Shown here one piece after another: positions 3,676-23,076 of a stretch of DNA of 64,000 bases; positions within the stretch are counted from its first letter, which is position 1, and every line of letters starts with the position of its first letter. The position numbers and the translations under genes were made by a program. The stretch comes from Streptosporangium lutulentum (lineage in GTDB: Bacteria; Actinomycetota; Actinomycetes; Streptosporangiales; Streptosporangiaceae), in assembly GCF_030811455.1 (NCBI RefSeq), contig NZ_JAUSQU010000001.1:4588001-4652000 (forward strand). The letters are read 5' to 3'. A model generated the notes under the pieces. That model was not told the origin of the DNA and made no database searches. It worked only from the letters and a program-made list of their open reading frames with translations.

Positions 3676-3689
<14 letters not shown>
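3513..3689. repeat. Degenerate GGAGACACCGG repeats abutting the uvrB 3' end
   Basis: The RIO1-uvrB spacer carries repeated copies of a short element. Exact 13-mers caggagacaccgg lie at 3545-3557, 3580-3592 and 3677-3689, and variants (ggagacgcc) at 3513 and 3603. The last exact copy is the final codons and stop of uvrB, so the others look like decayed duplications of that 3' end. No gene is evident in this 230-bp spacer. Confidence 0.6.
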
Positions 3690-5787
<2,098 letters not shown>

Positions 5788-6161: not shown

Positions 6162-7712
6162 ATGTCCCGACCGAGAGAAGCCATGCAGGCCACGCTGGCC
6201 GCTGCCCAGGCGATAGGACAGGGCGGTGACGCGCGGCAGGTCATCGGGCAGGCGGTGGGGCAGATCGCCGGCCAGGTCGCCGGCGAGAAGGGGTTCTCAC
6301 TCAACACCTCGGACTTCATGGCCGCCCGCGACCAGGGCGTGTCCCTGGCCACCTCCATCGAGGCCCGCAGCGCGTCGCTGAACGAGGCCGGTGAGATCAT
6401 CAACCGCAGTTTCACCGGCAAGGGCCCGAACGGCGAGCCGGTTCACGTGATCTCACCGGTGGTGATCCCCAAGGACACCACGGCCCGGATCGTCCTCCCC
6501 CTGGTCGGGCTGGCGGCGCTCGGCCTGGTCGGTCTGGTCGCCACCGGGCTGCCCGACGGCGCGCGGGTGCTGTTCGGCCCCCACTACTGGGTCGTGCTGC
6601 TGCTGGCCGCGGGTTTCCTGTGGTGGCGGCGGAGCGTGGTCATGGTGCCCGAGGGCTGCAGGGCCCTGATCACCAAGTTCGGCAAGCTCGTGCAGATCGC
6701 CGAGCCCGGCCGGGTGACGCTGTTCAACCCGTGGAAGCGGGTCAGCTACATCGTCAACACCACCCGCGAGTACCCCTTCAACGCGCCCATCCGTGAGGCC
6801 CCGACCCAGCAGGGCGTCAAGGCCAGCGTCGACCTGTTCCTGCAGTTCCGGATCGAGGACCCGGCCGAGTTCATCTTCGTGCTCGGCTCGGTCGGCGGCT
6901 TCCAGGCCAAGCTGCAGAACGCGATCAGCGAGGTCACCCGCTCCCTCATCTACGCCCAGCGCGCCGAGGAGATCTACGACCTGGTCGGCGAGAGCACCAT
7001 GGGCATGCTGGACAACCTCAACCAGCAGTTCCTGCCCGCCGTACGGCTCACCGACGTGAACATCACGCATGCCGAGCCGACCAGCCAGGAGTACCGGATG
7101 GACCTGGCCGCCCCCGAGATGATCAGGGTGGCCAAGGAGGCGTACACCTACGAGTACGAACTCCAGCTGCGCAAGGAGCAGAACGAGGGCGACCTGATCA
7201 AGGAGCTCGCCGGTCTGCAGGAGCAGCTGTCGGCCATCCACGCCGAGATCGCCGGATACCAGGCCCGGATGGACACCGCGCTGGAGCGCGCGTCCCACCA
7301 GGCGAAGGCCCAGGGAGGCCAGCGGCTGGTGGAGGCCGAGTCCACCGCCAAGGCGAACGCGGCCCTCCTGGAGGCTCAGGCCCTGGACATCCGGGCTCTG
7401 AGCGCGGCCGAGGCGCCGGAGATCCTGGACTACCGCTTCGAGCAGGACCTGCTCGACAAGCTCGAATCCGTGGCCTCCCACATGCCCCGGCTGGTGCAGA
7501 TCGGCGAGACCGCCGACATCGACCTGCTCGCCCTGGCCAAGCAGATGGTCGGCAGCCACGAGAAGCAGCTGTTCTCCGACACGGACATGGCCGCGATCAG
7601 GGACCGGATCACCCAGATCGGCAGGCGTGTCGCGGACCGGGAAGCGGAGATCACCGCTCTCCTGCACCCCGTCTCCGAGACCGTGGCGCCCCCCGCGGAA
7701 GCGAAGGCGTGA
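6162..7712 (+). CDS. SPFH (stomatin/flotillin) domain membrane protein
   Basis: Membrane-scaffold protein of the SPFH/band-7 superfamily, 516 residues. A cytoplasmic N-terminal region (1-100) precedes two hydrophobic segments (about 107-130 and 140-158), an SPFH core starting near [16 protein letters not shown] (about 165-330), and a long Ala/Glu/Gln-rich coiled coil (about 330-450) as in flotillins. The ATG at 6162 is used rather than the TTG at 6159 because GGAGG at 6153-6157 would leave only 1 nt to the TTG. It heads a cluster with a second SPFH gene and Spo0M, sharing a PVVIPKD motif before its first membrane segment with the next protein. A role in membrane microdomains is inferred. Confidence 0.8.
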
Positions 7713-7768
7713 GATGAGCGGTCCGCGAGGAACGAACGGCCCCGTAACGAACGAGGAGCGGTGAACGC

Positions 7769-9019
7769 GTGAGCAACAGAGAGTTCTCCAAGATCAAGGA
7801 ATCCCTGGCCTCGTGGTCGGAGATCCGCCAGTTGCTGCGCGGCGGCGAGTCCGGCCAGCTCGTCCCGGTGGTGATCCCCAAGGATCGCCGCGGCTTCGCC
7901 TGGGTGGCCCTGCTGTTCCTCTCCCTCTATCTGGTGGGCACCGCGGTGCTGGCCGACGGGATGCTCTCCGGTCTCGCCGCGATCGGCGCGGTGGTCTTCC
8001 TCGTCGCGGCGCTGGTCTGGATGTGGCGCCGGGCGATCATCGAGATCGAGGAGGGCACCACCGGCGTGCGCAGCCGGTGGGGGGCGATCGTCGGCGTCCT
8101 GCCCCCGGGACGCCACTACCTGTGGCTGCCGTGGGACCGGGTGGACGCGGTGGTGGACACCTCCACCGAGATCCCCTACTCCGCCCCGATCGTGGCCTGC
8201 CCCACCGCGGAGAACGTGCCGCTGAAGTCCATCGAGTTCTTCCTGAAGTTCCGCATCGTCGACCCGGTGGCCTTCGTCCGGACGATCGGAGCGGGCAACT
8301 TCGACCTCGTGCTCAGCAGCGCCGTACAGGACGCCATCCGCCAGCGCAGCCGCCAGGTCAACACCGAGCGGGCCTACGACCTGCGGGGGTCCGACGTGGG
8401 CGACATGCAGGAGCTCCTGACCCGCCAGCTCGGCCGGTACGGCGTGCGGATCACCGGCGCCAACATCCCCGACGTGCAGCTGCCCGACCAGTACCAGCAG
8501 CACCTGGCCACCCGTGAGAAGGTCGCCAAGGAGCTGTCGGCCTTCGAACGCGAGTGGGAGCTCACCCGCAAGCGGCGGATCGACACCCTCCTGATGGAGA
8601 TAGAGCGCTCCAAGAAAACGCGTGACGCACGTATCGTCGAGGTGAGAGCGGCCGCCAACACCGCGCGTAAGGACGTCGCCCGCATGCTGGAGGAGCACGA
8701 GACCGAGGCCCAGCGAGTGCGCTGGGAGATCGAGGCCAAGGGACGGGCGGAGCTCACCTCCGCCTCGAACGAGGCGAAGGGGCTGCGCCATCTGGCCGAC
8801 TCCTACCGCGACAACCGCGCCGTGCTCGAATACGAGCTGGCCCGCCGCCGGCTGGATGTGGGCGCCAAGCTCGCCGAGAGCGCCCCGCGACCCGTCGTCG
8901 TCCGCACCAGCGGCGCGTCCGGCGAGACCAGCGCGCTGTCCACCCTGCTCCTGGCCCAGATCCTGCCTCAGCTCGGCAGCGGGAACGGCCACGTCAAACC
9001 GGTCGTTGAACCCAACTGA
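7769..9019 (+). CDS. Second SPFH-domain membrane protein
   Basis: A 416-residue protein related to its upstream neighbour. After about 30 residues comes the shared LVPVVIPKD motif, then two membrane segments (about 43-62 and 66-85), an SPFH domain (from IIEIEEGTTGVRSRWG, about 90-260) and a charged helical region (about 255-350) with many Glu/Arg/Lys heptads. The GTG start has GAGGAG about 10 nt upstream. Spacing to the first SPFH gene is 56 bp and to Spo0M 28 bp, so co-transcription is likely. The paired paralogues could form a hetero-oligomeric membrane scaffold. Confidence 0.78.
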   Translation: MSNREFSKIKESLASWSEIRQLLRGGESGQLVPVVIPKDRRGFAWVALLFLSLYLVGTAVLADGMLSGLAAIGAVVFLVAALVWMWRRAIIEIEEGTTGVRSRWGAIVGVLPPGRHYLWLPWDRVDAVVDTSTEIPYSAPIVACPTAENVPLKSIEFFLKFRIVDPVAFVRTIGAGNFDLVLSSAVQDAIRQRSRQVNTERAYDLRGSDVGDMQELLTRQLGRYGVRITGANIPDVQLPDQYQQHLATREKVAKELSAFEREWELTRKRRIDTLLMEIERSKKTRDARIVEVRAAANTARKDVARMLEEHETEAQRVRWEIEAKGRAELTSASNEAKGLRHLADSYRDNRAVLEYELARRRLDVGAKLAESAPRPVVVRTSGASGETSALSTLLLAQILPQLGSGNGHVKPVVEPN

Positions 9020-9047
9020 AAACCTTCTATCCCCTGGGAGTCCCCCG

Positions 9048-9821
9048 ATGGTGTTCCGTAAGCTGATGGCCGCGTTCGGCGCCGGCGTCGAGGTCGACAC
9101 GGTGTTGCAAAACTCCAACGTCCGCCCGGGCGAGGTCCTGCGCGGGCAGGTCAACTTCCGCGGCGGCGGCTCCGACTACAAGGTCGAGGGCATCTTCATC
9201 GACTTCACCGCGGTCGTCGAGGTCGAGAGCGGCGACAACGAGTACAAGTCGACGTACAGCTTCCTGCGCCAGCAGGTCAGCGGGCCCTTCCAGCTCGCCT
9301 CGGGCGCCCCCCAGTCGACTCCCTTCGAGATCCCCGTCCCCTGGGAGACCCCGATCAGCGCCATCGGCGGCCACCCGCTGCGCGGCATGCAGCTCGGCGT
9401 CGCCACCGAGCTCGCCCTGGCCGGCGCGCTCGACAAGGGCGACCGCGATCCGCTGTTCGTCAACCCCCTGCCCGCCCAGGACCACGTGCTCGGCGCGCTG
9501 GACAACATGGGCTTCCGCTTCAAGAAGGCCGACCTGGAGCGCGGCACACTGCACGGCTCGCAGATGCCGTTCTTCCAGGAGATCGAGTACTACGCGGGCC
9601 GCGAGTACACCCGCCACTTCAACGAGCTGGAGCTGACCTTCATCGCCGGTCCGCACGCGCTGGACGTCATCCTGGAGGCCGACAAGCGCGGCGGCTTCAT
9701 GAGCTCCAGCCACGACTCCTACAACCGGTTCACGGTCCGCTACAACGACCACCCGGGCCAGGTGGAGCAGTCGCTCCGCGCGGGCCTGCAGGCCATGGCC
9801 CAGAAGCGTGGCTGGTTCTGA
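9048..9821 (+). CDS. Spo0M-family sporulation-control protein
   Basis: Arrestin-fold protein of the Spo0M family, 257 residues, the usual family length. It begins MVFRKLMAAFGAGVEVDTVL, the characteristic amphipathic start, followed by the conserved PGEVLRGQVNFRGG strand region and the QEIEYY segment near residue 180. In Bacillus, Spo0M modulates sporulation and interacts with the cytoskeleton; in actinomycetes the role is less clear. It is third in an SPFH-SPFH-Spo0M cluster, which points to membrane-associated work. A strong hairpin follows the gene. Confidence 0.88.
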   Translation: MVFRKLMAAFGAGVEVDTVLQNSNVRPGEVLRGQVNFRGGGSDYKVEGIFIDFTAVVEVESGDNEYKSTYSFLRQQVSGPFQLASGAPQSTPFEIPVPWETPISAIGGHPLRGMQLGVATELALAGALDKGDRDPLFVNPLPAQDHVLGALDNMGFRFKKADLERGTLHGSQMPFFQEIEYYAGREYTRHFNELELTFIAGPHALDVILEADKRGGFMSSSHDSYNRFTVRYNDHPGQVEQSLRAGLQAMAQKRGWF

Positions 9822-10149: not shown

Positions 10150-11160
10150 GTGGGGCGGATTGCACGGTTCGGAGCATGGCTCGGTAAGAACGTCGACGGT
10201 TTCATCGCGCTGCTCCTCGCCGTGGGCGTCGGCGTGGTGGGGCTGGTGGACGACCAGATCGACGAGGCCCTCAAAAAACAGGTGATCGAGGGCGGGACCC
10301 TCCTCGTGCTGGCGTTGCTGGCCACCGCCATCCTGCGGGACCGATGGCGGCAGGAGCCGGTCGAGACGGCGATCCGGAAGAGCTTCACCAGCGCCGCCTC
10401 GATTCCCGGCCGGCTGGAGCGGCTGGAGGGCGTGGTCGGCGAGGCGGGGAAGGCGTTGCAGGACCTGTCGGTCGTGCATGTGCTCAACGGCGCCGAGGAG
10501 ATCGCCAAGGCGCATTCCGAGGGCCGCAGGGAGACCGACCGCTGGATCTTCAAGGGCGGCACCGGCACCTACTTCCGAGCGGTGACGCTGCCCGAGTGCG
10601 TCGCGGCGGCCCGCAAGGAGCGGCGAGCGCTGCTGATGCGCCTGGAGATCCTCGACCCGAGCGACGAGCGGGTCTGCGAGGCCTACGCCCGCTTCCGGCG
10701 GTCGATGTCGCAGGAGCCGGACGGCACGGGAGAGATCTGGACGCCCCAGCGCACCCGCAAGGAGGCCTACAGCACCATCCTCGCCGGCTGCTGGTACCAC
10801 CAGCGGTTCGGCCTGCTGGAGATCCACATCGGGCTGTCGGCCACGATGACCACGTTCCGCTGGGACCTCTCGTCGGCATCACTGATCATCACGGGGGAGG
10901 ATCCCCGGCGGGCGCTTCTGGCGCGCAGGGGATCCTTCTACTACGACAGCTGCACCACCGAGCTGATGACCAGCCTGGAACAGGCCAAGCGGGTGCCGAT
11001 CGAATTGGGCAGATCGGTCCCGCTCAGCGACGAGCCCACGATCGAGGAGGTGCGCAGGCTGTTCGAGACCCTCGGCCTGCCCCTCCCCCGCTCCTACACC
11101 GACAGGGACATCGGCGACCTCACACGAAAGGCGCTTCGGGCGAAGAACCCATACCTGTGA
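10150..11160 (+). CDS. Membrane-anchored protein of unknown function, operon gene 1
   Basis: 336 residues, not confidently recognised. Two hydrophobic helices near the N-terminus (about 18-34 and 46-62) are followed by a basic stretch and a soluble cytoplasmic domain. The soluble part has RWIFKGGTGTYFRAVTLPE (about 132-150), then LLMRLEILDPSDERVCEAYARFRRS and a LLEIHIGLS strand. The pattern is faintly reminiscent of phospholipase-D-like or related effector folds, but no HKD motif is present. Its stop overlaps the next start as TGATG, indicating translational coupling to the cupin. GTG start. Together with a cupin and a phosphatase it could be an effector or sensor in a signalling cassette; that is inference. 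Confidence 0.75.
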   Translation: MGRIARFGAWLGKNVDGFIALLLAVGVGVVGLVDDQIDEALKKQVIEGGTLLVLALLATAILRDRWRQEPVETAIRKSFTSAASIPGRLERLEGVVGEAGKALQDLSVVHVLNGAEEIAKAHSEGRRETDRWIFKGGTGTYFRAVTLPECVAAARKERRALLMRLEILDPSDERVCEAYARFRRSMSQEPDGTGEIWTPQRTRKEAYSTILAGCWYHQRFGLLEIHIGLSATMTTFRWDLSSASLIITGEDPRRALLARRGSFYYDSCTTELMTSLEQAKRVPIELGRSVPLSDEPTIEEVRRLFETLGLPLPRSYTDRDIGDLTRKALRAKNPYL

Positions 11161-11810
11161 TGAGATACCAAGATCTGCACAATGAGATGATCAACGGTAC
11201 GGCGCGCGGCTCCCTTCCCGGATGGGCGGGACAGGTTCTCAGGGCCATCGGCTCCGGCGACTCGCCGATCACCGCCGTCCGCCATCCGCTGGGCTTCCTC
11301 TGCCTGCCGCTGGAGCGGACCGAGGAGTACGGCGTGTGCGTGCACGTCTGGTCCGGCGCGCTTCCGCACGCCTCCTCCACCACCTCGCAGATCCACTGTC
11401 ACAGCTGGGACCTGCTCAGCCACGTGCTGTACGGCCGGGTGGAGAACGTCCGCACCGACGTCAGCGACAGCGACACAACCTCGGCCGCCACCCACCGGAT
11501 CTTCGAGGTGGTCAGCGAGCCCGACGGCGACCACATCCGGCCGACCTCGCGCACCGTCAGGTGCGAGAGGGAGACGAGCGAGGTGTTCGGCCCCGGCGAG
11601 ACCTACACGCTGCCGGCCGGGGTGTTTCACGCCAGCCTGATTCCCGGCGACGGCGAGACGGCGACGATCGCGCTCGGCCGGAGCCGGCCGGGCCACAGCG
11701 ACCTGTCGCTGGGCCCGCCGGACCTGCCCGCCCACCTCATCTCCCGCTACCGTTGCGACGCGCGGGAGACCGCCCGCGTCGCGCTGCACGCCGCCCGGCA
11801 CCTGGTCTAG
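11160..11810 (+). CDS. Cupin-fold metal-binding protein, operon gene 2
   Basis: 216-residue protein with both cupin motifs. Motif 1 is HCHSWDLLSHVLYG (about 78-91) with an H-x-H pair and a further His; motif 2 is GETYTLPAGVFH (about 149-160). It resembles the cysteine-dioxygenase-like branch in length, but the substrate is unknown. The ATG shares its A with the TGA of the upstream membrane protein gene (TGATG), and 9 nt separate it from the phosphatase gene downstream, so the three are almost certainly one operon. The metal ligands look intact, favouring enzymatic activity over a purely structural role. Confidence 0.75.
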   Translation: MRYQDLHNEMINGTARGSLPGWAGQVLRAIGSGDSPITAVRHPLGFLCLPLERTEEYGVCVHVWSGALPHASSTTSQIHCHSWDLLSHVLYGRVENVRTDVSDSDTTSAATHRIFEVVSEPDGDHIRPTSRTVRCERETSEVFGPGETYTLPAGVFHASLIPGDGETATIALGRSRPGHSDLSLGPPDLPAHLISRYRCDARETARVALHAARHLV

Positions 11811-11819
11811 GAGGACCGC

Positions 11820-12641
11820 ATGGCCAGTGACACGGATCTGGAGCACGCCCGGCGGATCGCCGTCGACGCCGCGGAGGCGGCCGGGCTGCTGCTCTCCGCG
11901 GGGACCTGCGGGATCGTCGAGATCAACTCCAAGGGCGATCACGGCGACGTGGTCACCAACCTGGACCTGGCCGCGGAGAAGCTGCTGCTCGAACGGGTGC
12001 TGGCCGCCTTCCCCGATCACGCGGTGATCGCCGAGGAGTCGGGGAAGGCGGGCGAGACGGGATCCGGGTGGACCTGGGTCATCGACCCGCTCGACGGCAC
12101 CAACAACGTCGCGATCGGCCTGCCGCTGTACGCCGTGGGCCTGGCCCTGTGCCGGGCCGGGCTGCCGGAGCTCGGGGTCGTGCACGAACCGGTGACCGGC
12201 AGGACCTGGTCGGCGATACGGGGACGGGGTGCCCTCGGCCCCGGGGGTCCGCTGACCGTCCCGCCCTACCGCCCCACCGCTCACGGTCCCGTGCTCGCCT
12301 GGATCCAGGGGTACGGCGTGCGGCGCGGCGACGCCGTGGCGGGGGCGCTGAAGGCGGAGCTGGACGAGCGTGCCCGCCGGGTTCTGAGACTCTGGGCTCC
12401 GCTGCTCGCCTGGGTGATGCTCGCCCGGGGGGACATCGACGGGATCATCGGCTACCGGACCGGGATCGTCGACCTGCCCGGCGGCCTGCTCATCGCGCGA
12501 GAGGCGGGAGCGCTGGTCACGGCCTACGACGGCACGCCCTTCGACGCCTCGCTGTCGGGCGACGAACACGATTTCGTCGCGAGCAGGCCCGGGCTCCTGC
12601 CCGACCTGCTGGAGCTCGTCAGGGAGGGGGTCAGGCGGTGA
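11820..12641 (+). CDS. Inositol monophosphatase-family phosphatase, operon gene 3
   Basis: 273 residues, typical of Mg-dependent IMPase/CysQ/FBPase-like sugar or nucleotide phosphatases. Metal ligands are visible in AEESG (about 71-75) and the signature WVIDPLDGTNN (about 86-96); the C-terminal motif VDLPGGLLIAREAG (about 217-230) keeps the Asp of the usual WDxAAG. GGAGG lies just before the ATG. Substrate could be an inositol phosphate, a sugar phosphate or a bis-phosphate nucleotide such as PAP. It ends the operon and its last 11 nt overlap the 3' end of the convergent permease gene. Confidence 0.85.
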   Translation: MASDTDLEHARRIAVDAAEAAGLLLSAGTCGIVEINSKGDHGDVVTNLDLAAEKLLLERVLAAFPDHAVIAEESGKAGETGSGWTWVIDPLDGTNNVAIGLPLYAVGLALCRAGLPELGVVHEPVTGRTWSAIRGRGALGPGGPLTVPPYRPTAHGPVLAWIQGYGVRRGDAVAGALKAELDERARRVLRLWAPLLAWVMLARGDIDGIIGYRTGIVDLPGGLLIAREAGALVTAYDGTPFDASLSGDEHDFVASRPGLLPDLLELVREGVRR

Positions 12642-13812
12642 GCAGCAAGGCCCCCACGGTCGCGCCCACGCCGACCACGGCCAGTCCGGCCCCGGCCAGG
12701 ACGAACGTCGGTATCGGCACCCGCACCCCGCTCCGGCGGCACCACTCGAACCACAGCAGGATGGCGAGCGAGGCCCACGGGGTGATCACCGATCCGACGT
12801 TGGTGCCGATGAGCAGGGCCAGCAGCTGGTCCTGGTTACCCATGGGGATGACCTTCTCCACCGCGGTGTAGGCGGGCAGGTTGTTGATCAGGTTGGCGAG
12901 TCCGGCGCCCACGGCCGACGCCCGGTAGGCCCCCTCGGCGCCGTCACCGGTCCCGGCCAGGGCGCTCGTCACCTCCGACAGGCCGTACCGGCTCAGGGTG
13001 GGGATCACCAGGAACAGGCCGGTGACGAAGACCAGCAGCTGCCACGGAAACAGCGCGACGGTGAGCTTGGAGCGGTCACGCCAGGCGAAGGCGGCGATCA
13101 TCAGCATCGCGGCGGCCAGGGCGGCCACCTCGATCGGCAGCTCCAGCAGGATGGCGGCGATGAACAGCAGGCACACCACGGCCGCCGTACGGAACAGCAC
13201 CGGGTCGGCGATCGGCTCGGGGACCGGCGGGTCGTAGCGGTCGGCGCCGCGCCGGCCGCGCCGCCAGAAGAACACCCACAGGAAGACCATGGTGACCGCG
13301 ATGGAGACGAGCTGCGGGAACCAGAGCCGCCCGGCGAACTCCTGGACGGACATGTCCAGCCGTTCCATGGCCAGCAGGTTGGTCAGGTTCGAGATCGGCA
13401 GAAGCAGGCTGGCGGTGTTGGCCAGCCAGACGGTGGTCATGGCCAGCGGCAGCGCGGCGATCCCGGTCCTGGCCGCCAGGGCGAGCATGACGGGCGTCAG
13501 CAGCACCGCCGTCGTGTCCAGGTTCAGGAACATGGTGACCAGCGAGGCGAAGGCCGTGCACAGCAGGAAGAGCGCGACGTAGTTCCCCCGGCCCGCCGCC
13601 GCCATCCGGGTCGCGATCACGTCGAAGACCTGAGCCTCCTTGGTCAACTCCGCGAGGATGACCACGGCGCCGAGGAACAGCAGGATGGGCGCGATCCGCT
13701 CCATCTGCCCCAGGGCCTCCCCCGCCGGGAGCAGTCCGGTGGCGACGAACAGCAGCCCCAGCCCGAGCAGGCCGATCCGGATTCGGTCCAGAACACTCAA
13801 TCGCCGCAACAC
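12631..13812 (-). CDS. SLC13/ArsB-type anion permease
   Basis: Integral membrane permease of the ArsB/NhaD/SLC13 ion-transporter superfamily, about 393 residues with 10-11 hydrophobic segments. Family hallmarks include LNLDTTAVLLTPVMLAL, a hairpin region LPISNLTNLLA and a second inverted-repeat half with NLINNLPAY and GTNVGSVITPWAS. The frame is open to 13875; the GTG at 13812 (VLRRLSVLDRIRIG) gives a natural N-terminus, although the ribosome-binding site is weak. It is divergent from the TIR-WD40 giant and convergent with the phosphatase, overlapping it by 11 nt. Likely substrates are arsenite, dicarboxylate or another anion; no ars genes are nearby. Confidence 0.82.
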   Translation of the reverse strand: MLRRLSVLDRIRIGLLGLGLLFVATGLLPAGEALGQMERIAPILLFLGAVVILAELTKEAQVFDVIATRMAAAGRGNYVALFLLCTAFASLVTMFLNLDTTAVLLTPVMLALAARTGIAALPLAMTTVWLANTASLLLPISNLTNLLAMERLDMSVQEFAGRLWFPQLVSIAVTMVFLWVFFWRRGRRGADRYDPPVPEPIADPVLFRTAAVVCLLFIAAILLELPIEVAALAAAMLMIAAFAWRDRSKLTVALFPWQLLVFVTGLFLVIPTLSRYGLSEVTSALAGTGDGAEGAYRASAVGAGLANLINNLPAYTAVEKVIPMGNQDQLLALLIGTNVGSVITPWASLAILLWFEWCRRSGVRVPIPTFVLAGAGLAVVGVGATVGALLLTA

Positions 13813-13934
13813 AATCTGACATGATCCACGAGACCGGCTCGGATTGCACGCGCCCTCTTGATCGAAACACTCCAAAACCCCGCAACGGCGGGCGATACTG
13901 AACTGCGGGCGCGGTGGCGACGGATGGGGACGCG

Positions 13935-16900
13935 ATGGCTCGGGACGACAGGCCGATCGACATCTTCGTCAGTTACTCCCCCGCCGACGAACGCTGGGCC
14001 TCCTGGATCGCGTGGGAGCTGGAGGCCGCCGGATACCGGACGATGATCCAGGCCTGGGACTTCGTCCCGGGCACGCAGTTCATCGAGTTCATGGACCGCG
14101 GCGTCAGCGAGGCCGCCCTGGTGGTGGCGGTGCTGTCGCGAAACTACCTCAGGTCGCGCTGGGGGCGGATGGAGTGGCAGGCCGCGCTCCGCGCCGACCC
14201 GGAGAACCCCTCCAACAAGCTGGTGACGATCAGGCTGGAAGACTGCCCGCTGGAAGGGCTGCTGTCCACGATCACCTGGGTGGACCTGGTCGGCGTCGCC
14301 GATCCCGGCCAGGCGCGTGCGCTGCTGCTCGACCGCATCGCCCAGGCACTGGCGGGCCGGGCCAAACCGCTGGAGCGGCCGTCGTTCCCCAACGGCCCCA
14401 CGCCCATCCCCGGCCAGGTTCTCTCCGCGTCCTTCCGGCGCGAGACCTCACGGACGCGCCGTACCCCGGTGGCGCCGCCCGCCTATCCGGCCGGGCCGTC
14501 GACGCACGCCCCGCGCGAGTCGATCACGCTGCTGCACATCGCGGGTTCCCGATTCGGACGAGGGCTGGCCGAGGAGGGCGAGCCCCTGACGGCCGAGGAG
14601 CTTCAGCCGAGGATCTGGGCGGATCTGACCCGGCTGCGAGACGCCGGGCTGCCCCGTCCCGACCTGATGGTGGTGACCGGTGACCTGACCGAGTCGGGCA
14701 GCCGCAGGGAGTTCGGCGAGGCCGCGGCCTTCCTGACCGGGCTGCGGGTGCTGCTCGGCCTCGAACCGCAACGCCTGATCGTCGTTCCCGGGCCGAGAGA
14801 CATCACGAAGGCGGCCAGCCGGGCCTACTTCAGCAACTGCGAAGCCGACGACATCCGCCCCCAACCTCCCTACTGGCCGAAATGGCGGCACTTCACCGGC
14901 CTGTTCGAGGAGCTCTACCTGGGACTCGACGGCCCGGAGTTCGACAGCGCCCAGCCCTGGACGCTCTTCTCCGTGCCGGAGCTCAAGGTCGTGCTCGTCG
15001 GCCTGAACTCCACCATGGCGATGAGCCATCGCGAGGAGGATCTGTACGGCTTCGTGGGCGAGGCGCAGGCCGCGTGGTTCGCCGAGCGGCTGCGGCCGTT
15101 CGAGGAGTCGGGCTGGCTGCGGATCGGCGCGATCGGCCACCCGCCGTCGCCGTCCCGCCTGCGCGACACCTCGACGCTCGAACACCTGCTGGGCGGCCGG
15201 CTCAACCTGCTGCTGCACGGGGCGGGCGAGGGGAGCCTGGAGAGCCTGCCCTGCCTGCCCGCACCCGGCCCCGGCCGCCATCAGCTCATCGAGGTGACCG
15301 CCACCGGCCTGCGCCGCTGGGACCGCGACGGGGGGGAGATCGCCCCCGCCGAGGAGATCTCGCGCCGCTGGCACGCGACAGGGCTGACCTTCTCGTCGGG
15401 AAAGATCGCGCCCGGACTGCCCCCGCAGCCCCTCCCCGCCGCCGAGCCCGAGCGGACCGCGAGCCCGGCCGCGCTGCTGCTGGAGCGGATCGCGGAGGTC
15501 TGCGAGGCCAGGCACGAACGGGTGAAGATCAGGAGAGTCGCCGACGAGGTCCCGCAACTGCTGGTCACCTACCCCGAGGACGGCTTCATCAGGCAGCTCA
15601 GGATAGGCGCGCACGTCGGCGAGATGACCTCCGGCGACGTGGAGGCGTTCGCCAGGCAGATTCACGCCTCAGGGCTGGAGCACGGCGCCGAACTGATCTA
15701 CCAGGGCCCGCCGCCCGCTCAGGTGCTCCGCGAGGAGATGACCCGGCGAGGGCTGCGGCTGCGCAGCTTCACCGAGTTCCAGGGCCTGCTCGACCTGACG
15801 GGATACGTGGCCGACCAGACGGCGCGGCTGCTCGCGGACCGGCGCTACCCGCACGAGCTGTACGTCGCGCAGCGCTTCAGGGAGCTGGACCGGCCCGGCC
15901 AGCTGGTCAAGGACGGGCTCACCGACGAGCTGATGCGGCTGCTGGCCACCGACCACGGCCGGTTCCTGCTGGTGCTGGGCGACTTCGGGCACGGCAAGAC
16001 CTTCGCCCTGCGCGAGCTGGCCAGGCGGATCCCGATGGAGCTGCCCCACCTGGCGCCCATCCTGATCGAGCTGCGCGCGCTGGACAAGGCGCACTCGGTG
16101 GACGGCCTGGTCGCCGCGCACCTGGCCAACCACGGCGAGGACGTCATCGATCTGAAGGCCTTCCACTACATGCTCCGCCAGGGGCGCATCGTGCTGCTGT
16201 TCGACGGATTCGACGAGCTGGTGACCCGGATGACCTACGAGCGGGCCGCCGATCACCTGGACACGCTGCTGCAGGCCGCCGAGGACAAAGCGAAGATCAT
16301 CGTGGCCAGCCGCACCCAGCACTTCAAGTCCAGCGCCCAGGTGCTCACCAAGCTCGGCGAGAAGGTGGGGCTCCTGCCGCAGCGGCGCGTCCTCAGCGTC
16401 GAGAACTTCACCCGCCTGCAGATCCACTCCTACCTCGTCAACCGCTACGACGGCGACAAGAGCGCGGCACAGGACCGCTTCTCGCTGATGAGCGACATCG
16501 AGGACCTGCTCGGGCTGGCCAGGAACCCGCGCATGCTCAGCTTCATCGCCGAACTCGACGACCAGCGGCTCGCCACCGTGGCCCAGGCCAAGCACACCAT
16601 CAGCGCGGCGATGCTGTACCAGGAGATCCTGGGCTCCTGGCTCGCCTTCGAGGAGCACCGGGTGAGCGGGGTGCGCGGCACGCCCACCGGGCTGCGCCGC
16701 GAGGAGCTGTGGCAGGCGGTGAGCACGCTGGCGCTGCGGCTGTGGGAGAGCGGCGAGGCCTACCTGCGGCCCGCGGAGCTGGCGGAGGTCGCCGAGACGC
16801 TGACCGGGCTGGCCGACGGGCAGCTTTCCGGCCAGCAGACCGCGCACGCGGTGGGAACCGGCAGCCTCATGGTCCGCACCGAGGAGGGTCTGTTCGGGTT

Positions 16901-19622
16901 CATCCACTCCTCGGTCATGGAATGGCTGGTCGCCCGGCACATCGCCGCGACCCTCGCCGACCCGGTGACCCTGGCGCTCAGGCCGCTGTCACAGCTCACG
17001 GTCGAGTTCCTGTGCGACCTGGCCGACGTGCGCGCCTGCCAGGCGTGGGCCACCGAGGTGCTCGCCACCCCCGGCGCGGACGACGTCTCCCGGGCCAACG
17101 CCATCAAGATCACGACCAGGCTGCGTACCCCGGCGATGTCCGACCTGCGCGGGGCCAACCTGCGGGGCGAGGACCTGTCCTCGCGTGACCTTCGGGAGGT
17201 GGACCTCACCGGCGCCGACCTGACCGACGCCACCCTGGTCGGCACCGACCTGTCCCGCGCCGTGCTCCGCGGCGCCCGGCTGAACGGGGCCCGGCTGGAC
17301 GAGGCGAAGCTCACCGGCGCCGACCTGCGCGGCGCCGACCTGACCCGGGCCAGGCTCGCCAGGGCGGACCTGCGGGACGTGTCCCTGGCCGGAAGCCGCT
17401 GGCAGCGGGCGGCGCTGATCGACGTCACCGGTACGGTGCCCGGCATCCCCGAGCTGCGCGGGGCGGCGATCGCACCGGGCCAGCCGGTCGAGACCCAGCT
17501 GGCCCCGGCCGCGATCGGCGTGCCGTACGGCTATCACTTCCAGTTCAGCAGGCTGCCCGATCCCGTCGCCTACAGCCCCGACGGCGAGACCGTGGTGATC
17601 GGCAGCGACGACGGCGGGGTGCTGCTCTGCGACAGCGGCACGGGCCTGCCGATCAAAAATCTGCAGGGCCACCGGGGACGGGTCTACGCCGTCACCTTCA
17701 GCGGCGCGGGAGACCTCCTCGCCACCGGGGCGAGCGAGGGAACGGTCCGGCTCTGGGATCCGGTCACCGCGACCCCCTCCCACGTGCTCACCGGCCATCC
17801 CGACGGGGTGTGGCCGGTGCTGTTCAGTCCCTCGGGGCGGCTGATCGCCGCGGGCGGCGCGGACGGCGTCGTGCGGGTCTGGGACACCGCCACCGGGCTG
17901 CCGCACCGGGAACTGTCAGGCCACGACGCGCCGATCTACACCGCGACCTTCGACGCGGGCGGCGAAACGCTCGTCACCGGCGACGCGAACGGGACCATCC
18001 GGATGTGGAACGTACGGACCGGCGAGATCCGCCGGACCCTGATCGGGCACCGCGGCGCCGTCTACCGCATCGCCTACGACCCCGCCGGCACCGTCCTGGC
18101 CGCGGGCGACCGGGAGGGCGTGGTCCGGATCTGGGATCCCGAGAACGGGCGGATCCTGCACGAGCTGATCGGGCACACGAACAGCGTCTACACGCTGGCC
18201 TTCGCCCCCTCCGGGCAGTTGATGGCGACCGGCGACACCGAGGGCACGATCCTGCTGTGGGACCCGGTCACGGGCGCCTCACGCGGCGCCCGCACCGGCC
18301 ACAGGACGGCCGTCTACCAGGTCGGGTTCAGCCCGGACGGCTCGCTGCTGGCCAGCGCCGACTCCGACGGGACGGTCCACCTGCAGGACGTCACCGGCCG
18401 CCACGAGCGGCTGGAGCTGGCCGGGCACCGAGGTTCCGTCTGGCCGTTCGCGTTCCGGCCCGACGGCGAGCAGCTCGTCACCAGCAGCAACGACGGCACC
18501 ATCCGGCTCTGGGATCCGTCTACCGGGCAGTGCCAGCGCGTCCTCCGCGGTCACGGCCGCAAGATCACCTCAGTCCGGTTCAGCTCCGACGGCAGCATGC
18601 TGGCCACCAGCGGCAACGACGGGGTCGTCCGGGTCTGGGAGCCGCGCACGGGCCGCCGCCTGCGGGAGTTCACCGGGCAGTCCGACCGGCTCATCTCCGC
18701 CGTCTTCAGCCCGACCGACCCCACGCTCGCCACCGCGAGCAACGACGGCGGGGTGCATTTCTGGAACGCCGCCACCGGCGACTACGAGCGCGAACTGCAC
18801 GTCGAAACCGACCACGTCTGGGCGGAGGCGTTCAGCCCCGACGGAGACCACATCGCCACCGCCAACGACGACGACAGCGTCTGCGTCTGGTACCGGGCGA
18901 CGGGCCGCCGGGCCGTCAAGCTCGCCGACCACCGCGGGCGGGTCCGCTCCATAGCGTTCAGCCCCGACGGCCGCTCCGTGGCCACCGGCTGCGACGACCG
19001 GCTGGTGCGGATCTGGGACGTCGAGACCGGCGAGTGCGTCGCGACCCTGGAGGGCCACACCGGCCGGATCTACTCGGTGGCCTTCGGACCCGACGGCACC
19101 AGGCTGGTCAGCGCGAGCAACGACGGCGACGCCCGCGTGTGGGAGCTGCGGCCCGGCAGTCCCGGTCAGGTCAGGCTCCTGCACACGCTCACCCGCCATT
19201 CGGGAGGGCTGTGGTCCGCCGCCTTCAGCCCGGACGGCTCGCTGCTGGCCACCGCGGGCGACGACCTGACCGTGCGGCTCTGGGACACCGCCACCGGCCG
19301 GCACCTGCACGCGCTGACCGGACACACCCACCGCATCTGGTCACTGGCCTTCTCCCCGGCCGGAGACCTGCTGGCCAGCGCGGGCGATGACGGCGCGGTG
19401 ATCCTGTGGAACCTTCCCCTTGGCACCGCTCCCACCCAGCGGGTGGTCCTCCTCGGCCTGCCCGAGGGGTGGGCGGCGATCGCTCCGGACGGCCGCTACA
19501 AACTCGTGGGCGAGGTGACCGGCCAGTTCTGGTACGTCGTCGGCACGCGGAGGTTCGAGCCCGGAGAGCTGGACGACTACCTGCCGGCGATCGGGAAGAT
19601 CCCCCTGGACGCGGAGTTCTGA
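13935..19622 (+). CDS. TIR-pseudo-phosphoesterase-NACHT-pentapeptide-WD40 giant protein
   Basis: 1,895 residues with five regions. A TIR domain (about 7-140; DIFVSYSPADERW) keeps the putative NADase Glu80 in WGRMEW. A calcineurin-like phosphoesterase fold (about 197-460) has lost most metal ligands: LHIAGSRFG replaces the D-x-H motif, VPGPRD replaces GNHD, and LLHGAGEG replaces GHxH. A STAND/NACHT NTPase has Walker A GDFGHGKT (682-689) and Walker B LLFDGFDE (754-761). Pentapeptide repeats A(D/N)LxG span about 1070-1157. About 15 WD40 units span about 1208-1835, followed by a C-terminal cap (GWAAIAPDGRYKL). A GTG at 13914 is an alternative start. This architecture fits a ligand-sensing, oligomerising signalling or abortive-infection protein; the trigger is unknown. 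Confidence 0.9.
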   Translation: MARDDRPIDIFVSYSPADERWASWIAWELEAAGYRTMIQAWDFVPGTQFIEFMDRGVSEAALVVAVLSRNYLRSRWGRMEWQAALRADPENPSNKLVTIRLEDCPLEGLLSTITWVDLVGVADPGQARALLLDRIAQALAGRAKPLERPSFPNGPTPIPGQVLSASFRRETSRTRRTPVAPPAYPAGPSTHAPRESITLLHIAGSRFGRGLAEEGEPLTAEELQPRIWADLTRLRDAGLPRPDLMVVTGDLTESGSRREFGEAAAFLTGLRVLLGLEPQRLIVVPGPRDITKAASRAYFSNCEADDIRPQPPYWPKWRHFTGLFEELYLGLDGPEFDSAQPWTLFSVPELKVVLVGLNSTMAMSHREEDLYGFVGEAQAAWFAERLRPFEESGWLRIGAIGHPPSPSRLRDTSTLEHLLGGRLNLLLHGAGEGSLESLPCLPAPGPGRHQLIEVTATGLRRWDRDGGEIAPAEEISRRWHATGLTFSSGKIAPGLPPQPLPAAEPERTASPAALLLERIAEVCEARHERVKIRRVADEVPQLLVTYPEDGFIRQLRIGAHVGEMTSGDVEAFARQIHASGLEHGAELIYQGPPPAQVLREEMTRRGLRLRSFTEFQGLLDLTGYVADQTARLLADRRYPHELYVAQRFRELDRPGQLVKDGLTDELMRLLATDHGRFLLVLGDFGHGKTFALRELARRIPMELPHLAPILIELRALDKAHSVDGLVAAHLANHGEDVIDLKAFHYMLRQGRIVLLFDGFDELVTRMTYERAADHLDTLLQAAEDKAKIIVASRTQHFKSSAQVLTKLGEKVGLLPQRRVLSVENFTRLQIHSYLVNRYDGDKSAAQDRFSLMSDIEDLLGLARNPRMLSFIAELDDQRLATVAQAKHTISAAMLYQEILGSWLAFEEHRVSGVRGTPTGLRREELWQAVSTLALRLWESGEAYLRPAELAEVAETLTGLADGQLSGQQTAHAVGTGSLMVRTEEGLFGFIHSSVMEWLVARHIAATLADPVTLALRPLSQLTVEFLCDLADVRACQAWATEVLATPGADDVSRANAIKITTRLRTPAMSDLRGANLRGEDLSSRDLREVDLTGADLTDATLVGTDLSRAVLRGARLNGARLDEAKLTGADLRGADLTRARLARADLRDVSLAGSRWQRAALIDVTGTVPGIPELRGAAIAPGQPVETQLAPAAIGVPYGYHFQFSRLPDPVAYSPDGETVVIGSDDGGVLLCDSGTGLPIKNLQGHRGRVYAVTFSGAGDLLATGASEGTVRLWDPVTATPSHVLTGHPDGVWPVLFSPSGRLIAAGGADGVVRVWDTATGLPHRELSGHDAPIYTATFDAGGETLVTGDANGTIRMWNVRTGEIRRTLIGHRGAVYRIAYDPAGTVLAAGDREGVVRIWDPENGRILHELIGHTNSVYTLAFAPSGQLMATGDTEGTILLWDPVTGASRGARTGHRTAVYQVGFSPDGSLLASADSDGTVHLQDVTGRHERLELAGHRGSVWPFAFRPDGEQLVTSSNDGTIRLWDPSTGQCQRVLRGHGRKITSVRFSSDGSMLATSGNDGVVRVWEPRTGRRLREFTGQSDRLISAVFSPTDPTLATASNDGGVHFWNAATGDYERELHVETDHVWAEAFSPDGDHIATANDDDSVCVWYRATGRRAVKLADHRGRVRSIAFSPDGRSVATGCDDRLVRIWDVETGECVATLEGHTGRIYSVAFGPDGTRLVSASNDGDARVWELRPGSPGQVRLLHTLTRHSGGLWSAAFSPDGSLLATAGDDLTVRLWDTATGRHLHALTGHTHRIWSLAFSPAGDLLASAGDDGAVILWNLPLGTAPTQRVVLLGLPEGWAAIAPDGRYKLVGEVTGQFWYVVGTRRFEPGELDDYLPAIGKIPLDAEF

Positions 19623-19825: not shown

Positions 19826-20425
19826 TCAGGACGCGGCGCGGGCGATCAGCTCGGACCAGACCTCGTCCACCCGGGCCTGGAGCTCCTCCAGCGAGCCCTC
19901 GTTCGACACTACGATGTCCGCGAGCTTCAGGCGGTTCTCCCTGGTCGCCTGGGCGGCGAACCGGGCCCTGACGTCCTGCTCGTTCATGCCGCGCAGCTCG
20001 ACCAGCCGGGCGAGGCGAACCTCGTCGGAGGCGTCCACGACGACCACCACGTCGTACATCGGGGCCAGGTTGTTCTCCGCCAGCAACGGCACGTCATAAA
20101 CCATGATCGCGTCGTCGTCCGTCTGCTCCTGCAGCTCGGCGACCCGCGCCCCGACCAGCGGGTGCACGATGGCGTTGAGGGAGGCCAGCTTCTCCGAGTC
20201 GGCGAAGACGATCGAACCCAGCCTCTCCCGGTTGAGCGACCCGTCCTCGTGCAGCACTTCGGTGCCGAAGACCCCGGCCACGTGCGCCAGCCCGGCCGTG
20301 CCCGGCTCGACCACCTCGCGGGCGATCTTGTCGGCGTCGATCAGCACGGCGCCGCAGGCGGCCAGCCGCCGGGAGACCTCGCTCTTGCCCGACCCGATAC
20401 CGCCGGTAAGTCCCACCTTCAACAT
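19826..20425 (-). CDS. coaE: Dephospho-CoA kinase
   Basis: Catalyses the last step of coenzyme A synthesis, ATP-dependent phosphorylation of dephospho-CoA. The 199-residue protein opens with [20 protein letters not shown], a perfect P-loop, followed by [11 protein letters not shown] (the DAD motif) and [15 protein letters not shown]. Length matches single-domain bacterial CoaE. An ATG at 20437 (MLRIMLK) is also possible; 20425 gives the canonical N-terminus. The longer upstream frame runs through the 42-bp tandem repeats and is spurious. Confidence 0.95.
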
Positions 20426-20456
20426 GATCCGCAGCATACGCCGTACGGCCCGCGGC

Positions 20457-20624
20457 ACGGAGCCGTGAAGACGGGTCTCCCCTCCGGTGGTCCACGGTAC
20501 GGAGCCGTGAAGACGGGTCTCCCCTCCGGTGGTCCACGGTACGGAGCCGCGGAGACGGGTTTCCCCTCTGACGGCTCGCGACACGGAGCCGCGGAAGCGG
20601 GTTCTCCCTCCGACGTCCGGGCCG
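20457..20624. repeat. Four tandem 42-bp repeats
   Basis: Units begin at 20457, 20499, 20541 and 20583 with the shared start acggagccg. The first two are essentially identical and the last two diverge progressively. They occupy the coaE upstream region and encode a spurious repeating peptide in the coaE frame. Confidence 0.9.
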
Positions 20625-20642: not shown

Positions 20643-21098
20643 CTACAACTGCCGGCGCATGTGGACCAGGGTCAGGTGGTCGCTCATCCGCTCCCTGCGG
20701 GTCTCACGGTAGCCGTGACGGCGGTAGAGCCGCAGATTGCCCTCCGACAGGTGCCCGGTGAACAGGTCGAACGCCAGGGCCGAGACGACCTCGTCGTGAA
20801 GGGCCGTCAGCAGCGTGCCGCCGAGACCCCGCCCCTGAACGTCCGGCGCGACCACCAGGCGGCCGACCATGCAGGTCGTGCCGGACAGCCGCCCCCGGAT
20901 CGCGCCCACGATCCGCCCGGTGTCGCGGGCGACGAGCACCGTCGCCGTCTCGACGGCCTTGCGGATCTGCGCGGCCGACTCCACCAGCGGGGGGATGAAC
21001 GGATCCCCGTAGAGCTGAGCCTCGCCCACGTAGGCGGCACGCTGCACGGTCAGGATCTCGCCCGCGTCCCCGGGCTCCGCCCGCTCGATCACGATCAC
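20643..21098 (-). CDS. GNAT-family N-acetyltransferase
   Basis: 151-residue single-domain acetyltransferase. The acetyl-CoA site is visible in [17 protein letters not shown] (about 82-98), the Q/RxxGxG/A signature, and the C-terminal LYRRHGYRE is the usual strand-turn after motif B. Starts with ATG ([16 protein letters not shown]). Substrate unknown. It is separated from rpsA by a terminator and from coaE by the 42-bp repeats, so is probably monocistronic. Confidence 0.9.
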
Positions 21099-21339: not shown

Positions 21340-22854
21340 TCAGCTCTGGCCGCCCGCGAGCTTCTCGCGCAGAGCGGCGAGAGCCTCGTCGGAGGCGAGA
21401 GCGCCCGCCGCCGGAGCGGAGGAGCTGCTGGAGCTGGTCGTGGAACCCGAACCGGAGCTCGCGCCGGGGGCCGGGGTCTCACCGGAGTAGGACGTGGGCG
21501 CGGCTTCGCCGGCCTCGGCCTCGGCCTTGCGGGCCTCCTCGACCTGCTTCTTGTGAGCCTCGAAGCGGGTCTGAGCCTCGGCGTACTGCCGCTCCCACTC
21601 CTCACGCTGCTTGTCGAAGCCGTCGAGCCACTCACCGGTCTCCGAGTCGAAGCCCTCGGGGTAGATGTAGTTGCCCGAGTCGTCGTAGGTCGCCGCCATG
21701 CCGTACAGCGTGGGGTCGAACTCGACGTCGGTTCCGATGGCACCCTCGTTCGCCTGCTTGAGCGACAGCGAGATCCGGCGACGCTCGAGGTCGATGTCGA
21801 TGATCTTCACGAAGATCTCGTCACCGACCTGGACGACCTGCTCGGGGATCTCGACGTGGCGCTCGGCCAGCTCGGAGATGTGAACCAGGCCCTCGATGCC
21901 CTCCTCGACGCGGACGAACGCACCGAACGGCACCAGCTTGGTGACGCGACCGGGCACGACCTGACCGATCTGGTGGGTGCGAGCGAACTGCTGCCAGGGG
22001 TCTTCCTGCGTCGCCTTGAGCGACAGGGAGACGCGCTCGCGCTCCATGTCGACGTCGAGAACCTCGACGGTGACCTCCTGGCCGACCTCGACAACCTCGG
22101 AGGGGTGGTCGATGTGCTTCCAGGAGAGCTCGGAGACGTGAACCAGACCGTCGACGCCGCCCAGGTCCACGAAGGCACCGAAGTTGACGATCGAGGAGAC
22201 GACGCCCTTGCGGACCTGACCCTTCTGCAGGGTGTTGAGGAACGTCTGGCGCACCTCGGACTGGGTCTGCTCAAGCCAGGCGCGGCGGGAGAGAACCACG
22301 TTGTTGCGGTTCTTGTCCAGCTCTATGATCTTCGCCTCGAGCTCACGGCCCACGTACGGCTGAAGGTCACGGACGCGACGCATCTCGACCAGGGAGGCCG
22401 GGAGGAAGCCACGGAGGCCGATGTCGAGGATGAGACCACCCTTGACCACCTCGATGACGGTGCCGGTGACGATACCGTCCTCGTCCTTGATCTTCTCGAT
22501 CGTGCCCCAGGCCCGCTCGTACTGAGCGCGCTTCTTGGACAGGATCAGGCGGCCTTCCTTGTCCTCCTTCTGGAGAACCAGGGCCTCGACGTGCTCGCCA
22601 ACCTCGACGACGTCCGCCGGGTCGACATCGTGCTTGATCGAGAGCTCGCGCGAGGGGATGACACCCTCGGTCTTGTAGCCGATGTCGAGCAAAACTTCGT
22701 CTCGATCGACCTTGACGACGGTGCCCTCGACGATGTCGCCGTCGTTGAAGTACTTGATGGTCAGGTCGATCGCTGCGAGGAAGTCTTCCTCGGAGCCGAT
22801 GTCGTTGACCGCTACCTGCGGGGTGCTCGAGGTGGCCTCAGTGCTGCTCGTCAT
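21340..22854 (-). CDS. rpsA: 30S ribosomal protein S1
   Basis: Ribosomal protein S1, which binds mRNA during translation initiation. The 504-residue protein carries four S1 OB-fold domains (about 38-108, 124-189, 209-279, 296-366), the actinobacterial complement rather than the six of E. coli, and a long disordered C-terminal tail rich in Glu/Ala then Ser/Gly. The open frame reaches 23046, but the ATG at 22854 (MTSSTEATSS) matches actinobacterial S1 and lies below the promoter at 23002-23030, so it is chosen. A terminator follows. Confidence 0.96.
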   Translation of the reverse strand: MTSSTEATSSTPQVAVNDIGSEEDFLAAIDLTIKYFNDGDIVEGTVVKVDRDEVLLDIGYKTEGVIPSRELSIKHDVDPADVVEVGEHVEALVLQKEDKEGRLILSKKRAQYERAWGTIEKIKDEDGIVTGTVIEVVKGGLILDIGLRGFLPASLVEMRRVRDLQPYVGRELEAKIIELDKNRNNVVLSRRAWLEQTQSEVRQTFLNTLQKGQVRKGVVSSIVNFGAFVDLGGVDGLVHVSELSWKHIDHPSEVVEVGQEVTVEVLDVDMERERVSLSLKATQEDPWQQFARTHQIGQVVPGRVTKLVPFGAFVRVEEGIEGLVHISELAERHVEIPEQVVQVGDEIFVKIIDIDLERRRISLSLKQANEGAIGTDVEFDPTLYGMAATYDDSGNYIYPEGFDSETGEWLDGFDKQREEWERQYAEAQTRFEAHKKQVEEARKAEAEAGEAAPTSYSGETPAPGASSGSGSTTSSSSSSAPAAGALASDEALAALREKLAGGQS

Positions 22855-23001
22855 GTGTGGAGTTGCTCCGAACGCGGACAGATGTCGATGTGGCGAACGC
22901 GCGGCGGGCTTCTTATCGTTCAGCCGAATGAATTGGCATCGGCGTGATCGAGCGCGAGCCCACTCCGTCCGAGACACGCGCGAGCCCACAGCGCAGCGAT
23001 C

Positions 23002-23030
23002 AGCATATGAGACCAGACGAGTATGGTCAA
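23002..23030 (-). promoter_or_regulatory. rpsA promoter, housekeeping-sigma type
   Basis: On the minus strand TTGACC (23025-23030), a 17-nt spacer and TATGCT (23002-23007) make a near-consensus promoter. Transcription would start around 22995, giving a leader of about 140 nt before the rpsA ATG, long enough for translational control. Confidence 0.75.
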
Positions 23031-23076
23031 TCCAGAGGCACGACACGCGGGCAGATCAGACCGGTTACGGACACGC

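Follow-up and report, generated by a model that had tools for sequence, protein, structure and literature searches.

A six-part TIR-STAND protein and its gene cassette in Streptosporangium lutulentum: a candidate bacterial self-destruct pathway

A 64,000-nucleotide stretch of the Streptosporangium lutulentum genome (assembly GCF_030811455.1, contig NZ_JAUSQU010000001.1, positions 4,588,001 to 4,652,000), hereafter the window, carries at positions 13935 to 19622 a gene for a 1,895-residue protein in which a TIR domain, a NACHT NTPase and C-terminal repeats are combined on one chain. This protein, here called TIR-STAND, belongs to a conserved cassette of five genes, and within the genus it has repeatedly been lost together with a neighbour that encodes a protein with two predicted transmembrane helices (2TM protein). 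The joint loss is the strongest evidence that the two genes share a function, and the cassette is a strong candidate for a bacterial self-destruct pathway. It is considered rather probable, if far from certain, that TIR-STAND is an NLR-like STAND conflict protein with the TIR as its output, that the 2TM operon acts in the same pathway, and that a dead phosphoesterase within the chain has a structural role. Bacterial NLR-like proteins are usually recognised by mobile, fast-changing loci. Unlike these, TIR-STAND lies beside core genes and evolves slowly, yet it has been discarded again and again.

The chain consists of six parts, namely TIR, dead phosphoesterase, NA-iREase3, NACHT, pentapeptides and WD40, encoded on the forward strand in a single open reading frame from the ATG at 13935 to the last coding position at 19619, with the stop ending at 19622. 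An in-frame GTG lies upstream at 13914. The TIR (TIR_2, residues 10-124, positions 13962..14306, Pfam E 5e-36) includes Glu80, whose codon is at 14172-14174. It is followed by a calcineurin-like pseudo-phosphoesterase (residues ~198-480, 14526..15374), which resembles NCBIfam DS9_1 (residues 198-402, E 1.2e-11) and, weakly, Pfam Metallophos (E 0.013), in both cases under the cut-off. Next comes NA-iREase3, a NACHT-associated inactive restriction endonuclease domain (residues 514-621, 15474..15797, PF22739, E 2e-37). The NACHT NTPase (residues 677-834, 15963..16436, Pfam E 1.5e-10) contains Walker A, GDFGHGKT (682-689, 15978-16001), and Walker B, LLFDGFDE (754-761, 16194-16217). The pentapeptide run (residues 1070-1164, 17142..17426, Pfam E 5e-46) holds 17-19 units according to its repeat register, and the WD40 region (residues ~1203-1838, 17541..19448, Pfam E 3.5e-134 over 14 stretches) holds 14 regular units from residue 1245 and, judged by eye, one degenerate first unit. 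A C-terminal cap 3' of the last WD40 unit (19449..19619) is touched mostly by WD40/propeller models. With an N-terminal effector, a NACHT carrying both Walker motifs and C-terminal repeats on one chain, the protein has an NLR-like STAND layout. An initial annotation of the window, made from the letters and their open reading frames, had already described the single chain, the TIR with Glu80, the positions of both Walker motifs and about 15 WD40 units, all of which hold. It had counted five parts, each correctly named, and overlooked NA-iREase3; its estimate of about 10 pentapeptide units was too low. A second full-length TIR-STAND copy, 60% identical, was found elsewhere in the same 10.6 Mb genome (locus L089, G000:C1:4434624-4440347; L and G numbers denote loci and genomes).

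A GTDB contig search confirmed 174 relatives, the best named match being Streptosporangium subroseum (94%); locus counts given here refer to the best 80 of the 174. These 80, the query and the second copy were aligned in 82 rows, of which two are cut short and do not reach the TIR. Glu80 is invariant in the 80 rows that cover this domain, and all 82 rows have Gly682, Gly685, Gly687, Lys688, Asp757, Asp760 and Glu761. Uncut family members span 1,849-2,023 amino acids. Ratios of nonsynonymous to synonymous change (dN/dS) were obtained by a simple Nei-Gojobori count for 17 hand-picked pairs, with one pentapeptide ratio not computable, and were below 1 in every computed domain; together with the domain E-values this excludes chance. 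The TIR ratio exceeded 0.15 in only one of the 17 pairs, in which synonymous change was almost nil, and in 12 pairs none of the other domains among the seven had a lower ratio. The WD40 values ranged from 0.09 to 0.48.

The four partner genes of the cassette, which the initial annotation of TIR-STAND had not noticed, lie directly upstream. The partner operon is headed by the 2TM gene (10150..11160, forward strand, 336 amino acids), whose product is predicted from hydropathy to have helices at about residues 15-33 and 44-62 and has a conserved soluble domain beside them. Its stop is overlapped by the start of a gene for a small conserved protein (11160..11810, forward, 216 amino acids), followed by an inositol-monophosphatase-family enzyme of the IMPase/HisN-like kind (11820..12641, forward, Pfam E 9e-41; HisN model E 4e-33, under its cut-off). 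Between this operon and TIR-STAND an ArsB/CitMHS-like transporter gene runs on the reverse strand (12631..13875, Pfam CitMHS 8e-35, ArsB 1.3e-24), divergent from TIR-STAND. The 2TM protein falls in no recognised family, with no significant match in Pfam (best E 0.19), PADLOC, NCBIfam or PDB, and its family profile retrieved nothing from PDB at E ≤5. The same profile found only this genome at E ≤1e-8 among 198 genomes of the phylum, a sample that is probably poor in family members; in viral contigs 16 stretches fitted a pattern for 2TM relatives and none was confirmed. The small protein had no significant Pfam match (HEWD E 0.1) and no NCBIfam match, and its tentative cupin-like label derives from a Cupin_2 match of E 0.017 in one relative only and from our own reading of the sequence.

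Across the family the cassette is conserved. Among 73 loci with at least 6.5 kb of upstream sequence, the transporter was present in 73, the 2TM gene in 72, the small gene in 72 and the IMPase gene in 69; all four partners were found at 69 loci, in the same order and on the same strands at 68 of them. An additional gene with weak 2'-5' RNA ligase/DUF1045 matches stands between IMPase and transporter in a Herbidospora cassette (L066:8071-8712). Broken TIR pieces beside an ArsB-like gene were seen at L115 (G014:C87), apparently a decayed cassette of the second type.

Loss within the genus was followed in a sample of 16 genomes. TIR-STAND was complete in six and present as a remnant in G005, and the 2TM gene was complete in exactly the same six, partial in G005 and absent in eight; in G001 it lay in fragments and no STAND piece was seen. 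All 10 genomes lacking a complete STAND have the right flank of the locus (coaE, GNAT and rpsA) in place. Eight of them also show the SPFH genes of the left flank, which is not seen in the stretches taken from G013 and G002. If loss is the rule, a tree of flank genes, built from 15 of the 16 genomes (G011 was left out) with five outgroups chosen among carriers, distributes the absences over at least five lineages. In G013, G002 and G005 the transporter is still matched in one piece across at least 374 of its 414 residues, with both sides gone or decayed; G004 retains only the IMPase gene, and in G001 the transporter itself is cut. In the remnant search WD40 matches were reported only at E ≤1e-30. 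A separate search recovered the G005 remnants as well and no remnant in the STAND stretch of G013 and G002, which had only short scattered WD40-type matches elsewhere. Because the retained transporter lies between the 2TM operon and TIR-STAND, one deletion cannot explain the joint loss, and the transporter is thereby set apart from the two genes that disappear together. A match was found in 13 of 61 genomes (12 of 60 genera) of the family sample, and two of these matches are distant cousins. The TIR-STAND gene is dispensable, which fits a costly immune gene.

By analogy with TIR-NLR, DS-8 and other STAND proteins, the repeats would sense, the NACHT would oligomerise and the TIR would be the output. 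The WD40/pentapeptide part might keep the protein silent until a ligand is sensed, the NACHT would then bind ATP and drive oligomerisation, and the oligomer could cluster the TIR domains for an action on NAD+ via Glu80, either depletion or production of a signal. The operon of 2TM, small cupin-like and IMPase-like proteins would belong to the same pathway. A membrane effector or receptor is the most likely role for the 2TM protein, with a membrane step resembling that of Thoeris, so that TIR-STAND probably works with it in a Thoeris-like manner; processing of a small molecule could fall to the IMPase-like and small cupin-like proteins. An anti-phage purpose of the whole may be supposed on the same analogies.

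The phosphoesterase within the chain would once have been an effector of the Rv0805/DS-8 kind whose active site was lost in the TIR-bearing lineage, and would now serve structurally. An active calcineurin-like phosphoesterase was rejected, the metal-binding motifs being lost across the close family, in agreement with the pseudo-enzyme proposed at the outset. None of the 82 rows has D-x-H/Q, none has GNHD/E, and a GHxH pattern occurs in two. The motif I Asp is replaced by Gly in 81 rows and the motif I His by Arg in 78, leaving mostly G-P-R where the metal-binding D-x-H is expected. The fold is still constrained, and it therefore probably keeps a structural part.

Distant cousins (38-51% identity among the matches listed) from the family sample and from a class sample (a match in seven of 118 genomes, three with the window family) suggest how the site may have been given up. 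L113 has no TIR and begins with an intact phosphoesterase (HISDTQFG, GNHD, HGHTH) whose closest PDB sequence is Rv0805 (E 3e-16), a cyclic-nucleotide phosphodiesterase. L112 likewise has no TIR, and a trypsin-like domain, recognised by eye, precedes its intact phosphoesterase. All metal motifs are present in both, so that in two of two relatives found without a TIR the phosphoesterase is intact. TIR and intact phosphoesterase stand together in L132 and L140, which share a genome with the partly altered L131. A TIR-type N-terminus with a degenerate phosphoesterase was seen in L133, L134 and L135 (the TIR of L134 was assigned by eye, and tblastn with the window TIR gave no match there), and a TIR with the phosphoesterase deleted in L136 and L137. 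The relatives thus form a natural series of effector replacement, from phosphoesterase alone through TIR with an intact and TIR with a dead enzyme to TIR with the enzyme deleted. The window family forms a single group (support 1.00) on a 32-sequence tree of the iREase-NACHT core, and the phosphoesterase is dead in 22 of its 22 members there. Of the 13 cousin-sample loci, two (L138 and L139) are members of the window family, and L141, which is broken or masked, stands outside the tree; several inner cousin branches are poorly supported, and the core tree does not fix the number of independent degenerations. Since both TIR-less relatives keep an intact phosphoesterase, an effector hand-over from phosphoesterase to TIR appears likely. 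The simplest story would be that a fast-evolving STAND protein with phosphoesterase output gained a TIR, no longer needed the older enzyme and afterwards settled. The 5 Mb genome G091 carries four TIR-phosphoesterase-iREase-NACHT loci (L131, L132, L140 and L141). The phosphoesterase motifs look intact in three of them, and L141 is broken or masked further along; mean identity among WD40 blades is 0.69 in L131 and 0.86 in L132 (three blades).

Several observations weigh against a defence role for TIR-STAND, and most concern its surroundings. A defence-island setting, which the initial annotation had suggested looking for among homologues, was not what the survey returned. The gene coaE was found near TIR-STAND at 59 of 80 loci, no more than 5 kb downstream at 58 of these, which is a core context, and no defence system was recognised by PADLOC among the neighbours tested. 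In the window, coaE (19826..20584, reverse strand, Pfam CoaE 8e-59) is followed by GNAT (20643-21098), rpsA (21340-23046) and genes for a polysaccharide deacetylase and DNA polymerase I. On the left lie a uvrB-like gene (3676-6150, reverse), two SPFH/Band 7 genes (6159-7712 and 7769-9019, forward) and a spo0M-like gene (8856-9821, forward); the block of the SPFH/Band 7 pair and spo0M-like gene (6159-9821) is kept in at least eight of the 10 genus genomes lacking a complete STAND. Six of seven window neighbours had no PADLOC match. The seventh, uvrB, matched 13 models (best PbeA, 5e-14), and as we read these matches they run through its helicase part. At 21 of 80 loci coaE was not seen in the fetched flank. 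PADLOC was applied to 88 of 162 open reading frames, from eight of 11 listed loci, all eight without coaE, and returned matches at E ≤1e-5 to 10 families, each represented by one to three members and not traced to individual frames: CARF_ADA (three), PDC-M42C (two) and mad3, C3a156, AriA, C3a186, mad8, ATPase-Toprim_I-B, PycC and HEC-01A (one each). Single defence genes may be present in these flanks without coaE. Residues 1-1158 had no match in phage records at E ≤1e-10, and their only match in a plasmid collection (E ≤1e-30) was an 11.85 Mb Nonomuraea record taken as a chromosome. A gene of an island or mobile element was rejected on this context and these searches.

The rate of evolution points the same way. 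Over 34 loci the divergence of TIR-STAND was 0.310 against 0.283 for CoaE and 0.060 for RpsA, and its distances tracked those of CoaE, GNAT and RpsA combined (r 0.91 over non-independent pairs). By its sequence distances the TIR-STAND gene follows the pattern of vertical inheritance rather than that of a hypervariable receptor. The sensor part itself, WD40, evolves at the pace of the remaining domains. Blades were detected by a regular expression, a coarse finder that overlooks some; with it, mean identity within a chain was 0.37-0.52 and no pair reached 0.8 in 12 of 12 family members tested. A fast-evolving, HET-like repeat sensor was not supported, with diverged blades that change at a rate like that of the rest of the chain. 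In the literature, no experiment on the TIR-STAND protein was found in open-access papers. The initial proposal of a sensing WD40/pentapeptide part, an oligomerising NTPase and a TIR output is supported in part, by the NLR-like layout, the invariant TIR glutamate and NTPase motifs and the repeated gene loss; the mostly core context, the lack of a recognised defence system nearby and the diverged WD40 repeats speak against it. The initial annotation had held that homologues confined to stable core contexts without defence neighbours would contradict it, and for the close family this is largely what was found.

For that reason a switch for stress or development is a serious rival. According to it, TIR-STAND is a vertically inherited cell-death or stress switch that monitors the internal state during filamentous growth, answers a housekeeping or developmental trigger and shuts the cell down through its TIR, with no part in phage defence. 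The site between uvrB-SPFH-spo0M and coaE-rpsA, the tracking of flank-gene distances, the diverged WD40 repeats with no defence system recognised nearby, and the absence from phages and true plasmids all agree with such a switch. A gene that is absent or decayed in 10 of 16 genus genomes and present in 12 of 60 family genera is dispensable, however, which does not fit it. Neither do the cousins, since among the eight with at least three blades found, where mean blade identity was 0.41-0.86, five have pairs at or above 0.8 (none occurs in L133, L134 and L135), and such near-identical repeats are typical of fast sensors. On balance this switch is judged unlikely, though it deserves to be taken seriously.

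Another possibility concerns the TIR itself, which might serve as a scaffold only, as in TLR/MyD88 signalling, recruiting a partner, perhaps the 2TM protein, and having no NADase activity. Against PDB sequences the TIR profile indeed matches TLR1, TLR2, TLR6, TLR15 and MyD88 best. The catalytic glutamate expected of a TIR NADase is found at residue 80, and in the alignment of the profile to PDB sequences TLR2 has a Glu at the same place. To our knowledge TLR2 is not an NADase, and because it shares this residue Glu80 does not prove catalysis. The constraint on the TIR is not unique either, mean protein distance being lower for the NACHT (0.142) than for the TIR (0.171). Both points count against the NLR-like reading with a TIR output. 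A scaffold is nevertheless held to be rather improbable, as Glu80 is constant in 80 of 80 rows, whereas the cousins L133 and L136 have Gln at this alignment column.

The cassette might also be a set of hitchhiking genes in a quiet locus with no common function. Most loci share the coaE-rpsA neighbourhood, and linkage alone could keep the order of genes. The unity of the cassette is further weakened by single loci: L082 has STAND and transporter and lacks the operon, and the second cassette of this genome (L089) has a divergent transporter and a 2TM gene but nothing that matches the small gene or IMPase. However, the same set occurs in Streptomyces, Herbidospora and a Pseudonocardiales metagenome-assembled genome with no coaE in the fetched flank, and the joint loss affects both sides of a retained gene. 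Moreover, two plasmids, each a single example, carry the 2TM and small genes together. In Methylobacterium (L142, NZ_CP099612.1) a 2TM homologue (31% over 155 amino acids) is overlapped by a next gene resembling the small protein (27% over 124 amino acids). In Rhodococcus opacus (L144, NZ_CP093382.1) a trypsin-like protease gene precedes overlapping 2TM and small genes, the former matched by profile (hhalign 98.6%, E 1.4e-15) and the latter similar to the Methylobacterium gene (28%, E 3e-8). The pair is an unrecognised two-gene module in two phyla, and mere hitchhiking is considered quite improbable. The Methylobacterium pair lies near an operon with a Dam methyltransferase, a DS9_1-like metallophosphoesterase and an ORC/CDC6-like NTPase, and L142 is possibly a small defence locus.

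It is very doubtful that TIR-STAND guards, or is regulated by, the ArsB/CitMHS-like transporter and senses anion or metalloid stress: the transporter adjoins it on the opposite strand at 77 of 80 loci (two of the three exceptions have less than 100 bases upstream) and accompanies the second copy in this genome, but it survives STAND loss in G013, G002 and G005, L085 shows none in its 1.65 kb of upstream sequence, and the adjacency may reflect only a shared promoter region. That L085 has the small gene and no adjoining transporter also tells against the cassette as a fixed unit.

The preferred reading of TIR-STAND remains that of an NLR-like STAND conflict protein whose output is the TIR. It could be extended, tentatively and with low confidence, to a vertically inherited immune pathway in which TIR-STAND produces a signal derived from NAD and the 2TM protein responds to that signal by perturbing the membrane, with the small cupin-like and IMPase-like proteins responsible for synthesis or removal of the signal. 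The pair of 2TM and small genes would then be a portable module that elsewhere accompanies a trypsin-like protease or a phosphoesterase and ORC-like NTPase, and the dead phosphoesterase would mark the replacement of an output. If true, such a pathway would unite NLR-type sensing with a Thoeris-type membrane output.

Among known systems, the fungal HET-D/E proteins join NACHT to WD40. As far as the available text goes, they are NLRs with internally conserved repeats (PMC12222747); the repeats of the window family are diverged, not near-identical. Membership in annotated families was rejected at the NCBIfam cut-offs, with 18.6 against 790 bits for DS8, 44.2 against 420 bits for DS9_1 (DS-9A) and 29.1 against 1000 bits for the EruA NACHT anti-phage family; open-access papers turned up for the name EruA did not mention it. 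A known PADLOC system was rejected too, since the seven families matched gave partial TIR matches only (best bSEFIR, E 3e-9). Neither the six-part chain with its dead phosphoesterase nor the five-gene cassette nor the 2TM pair was found in the open-access literature searched, a body that mostly leaves out subscription papers. The NLR-like kind of TIR-STAND protein is already known. A TIR-STAND(NLR) protein is proven to defend Escherichia coli against phage (PMC9122126), and the TIR-NLR of P4-like satellites in this report shares the N-terminal TIR, central STAND NTPase and C-terminal repeats on one chain. It differs in its TPR repeats and as a single gene on a phage satellite, and the accessible part of that report mentions no phosphoesterase or iREase. 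The metallophosphatase-NACHT protein DS-8, likewise proven as phage defence in E. coli (DefensePredictor, PMC13092281), combines the two domains on one protein; in the portion available DS-8 is described as needing its metallophosphatase residues, whereas TIR-STAND has lost these residues and carries a TIR ahead of the domain. Similar in composition are the STAND conflict systems of multicellular bacteria (PMC7159879, PMC8195603), where TIR, calcineurin-like and peptidase effectors are swapped at the N-terminus and pentapeptide and propeller superstructures occur; the six-part chain and the cassette were not found described in the accessible sections of these papers. Thoeris with a TM-macro ThsA (PMC11204291) offers an analogy only, and membership was rejected because the TIR is fused to STAND and the 2TM protein has a soluble domain without a match to any known family, macro included. 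According to the part of that source available, nucleotide binding to TM-macro ThsA has been proposed to cluster its transmembrane domains, and Thoeris shares with the cassette a TIR enzyme paired with a transmembrane protein that carries a soluble domain.

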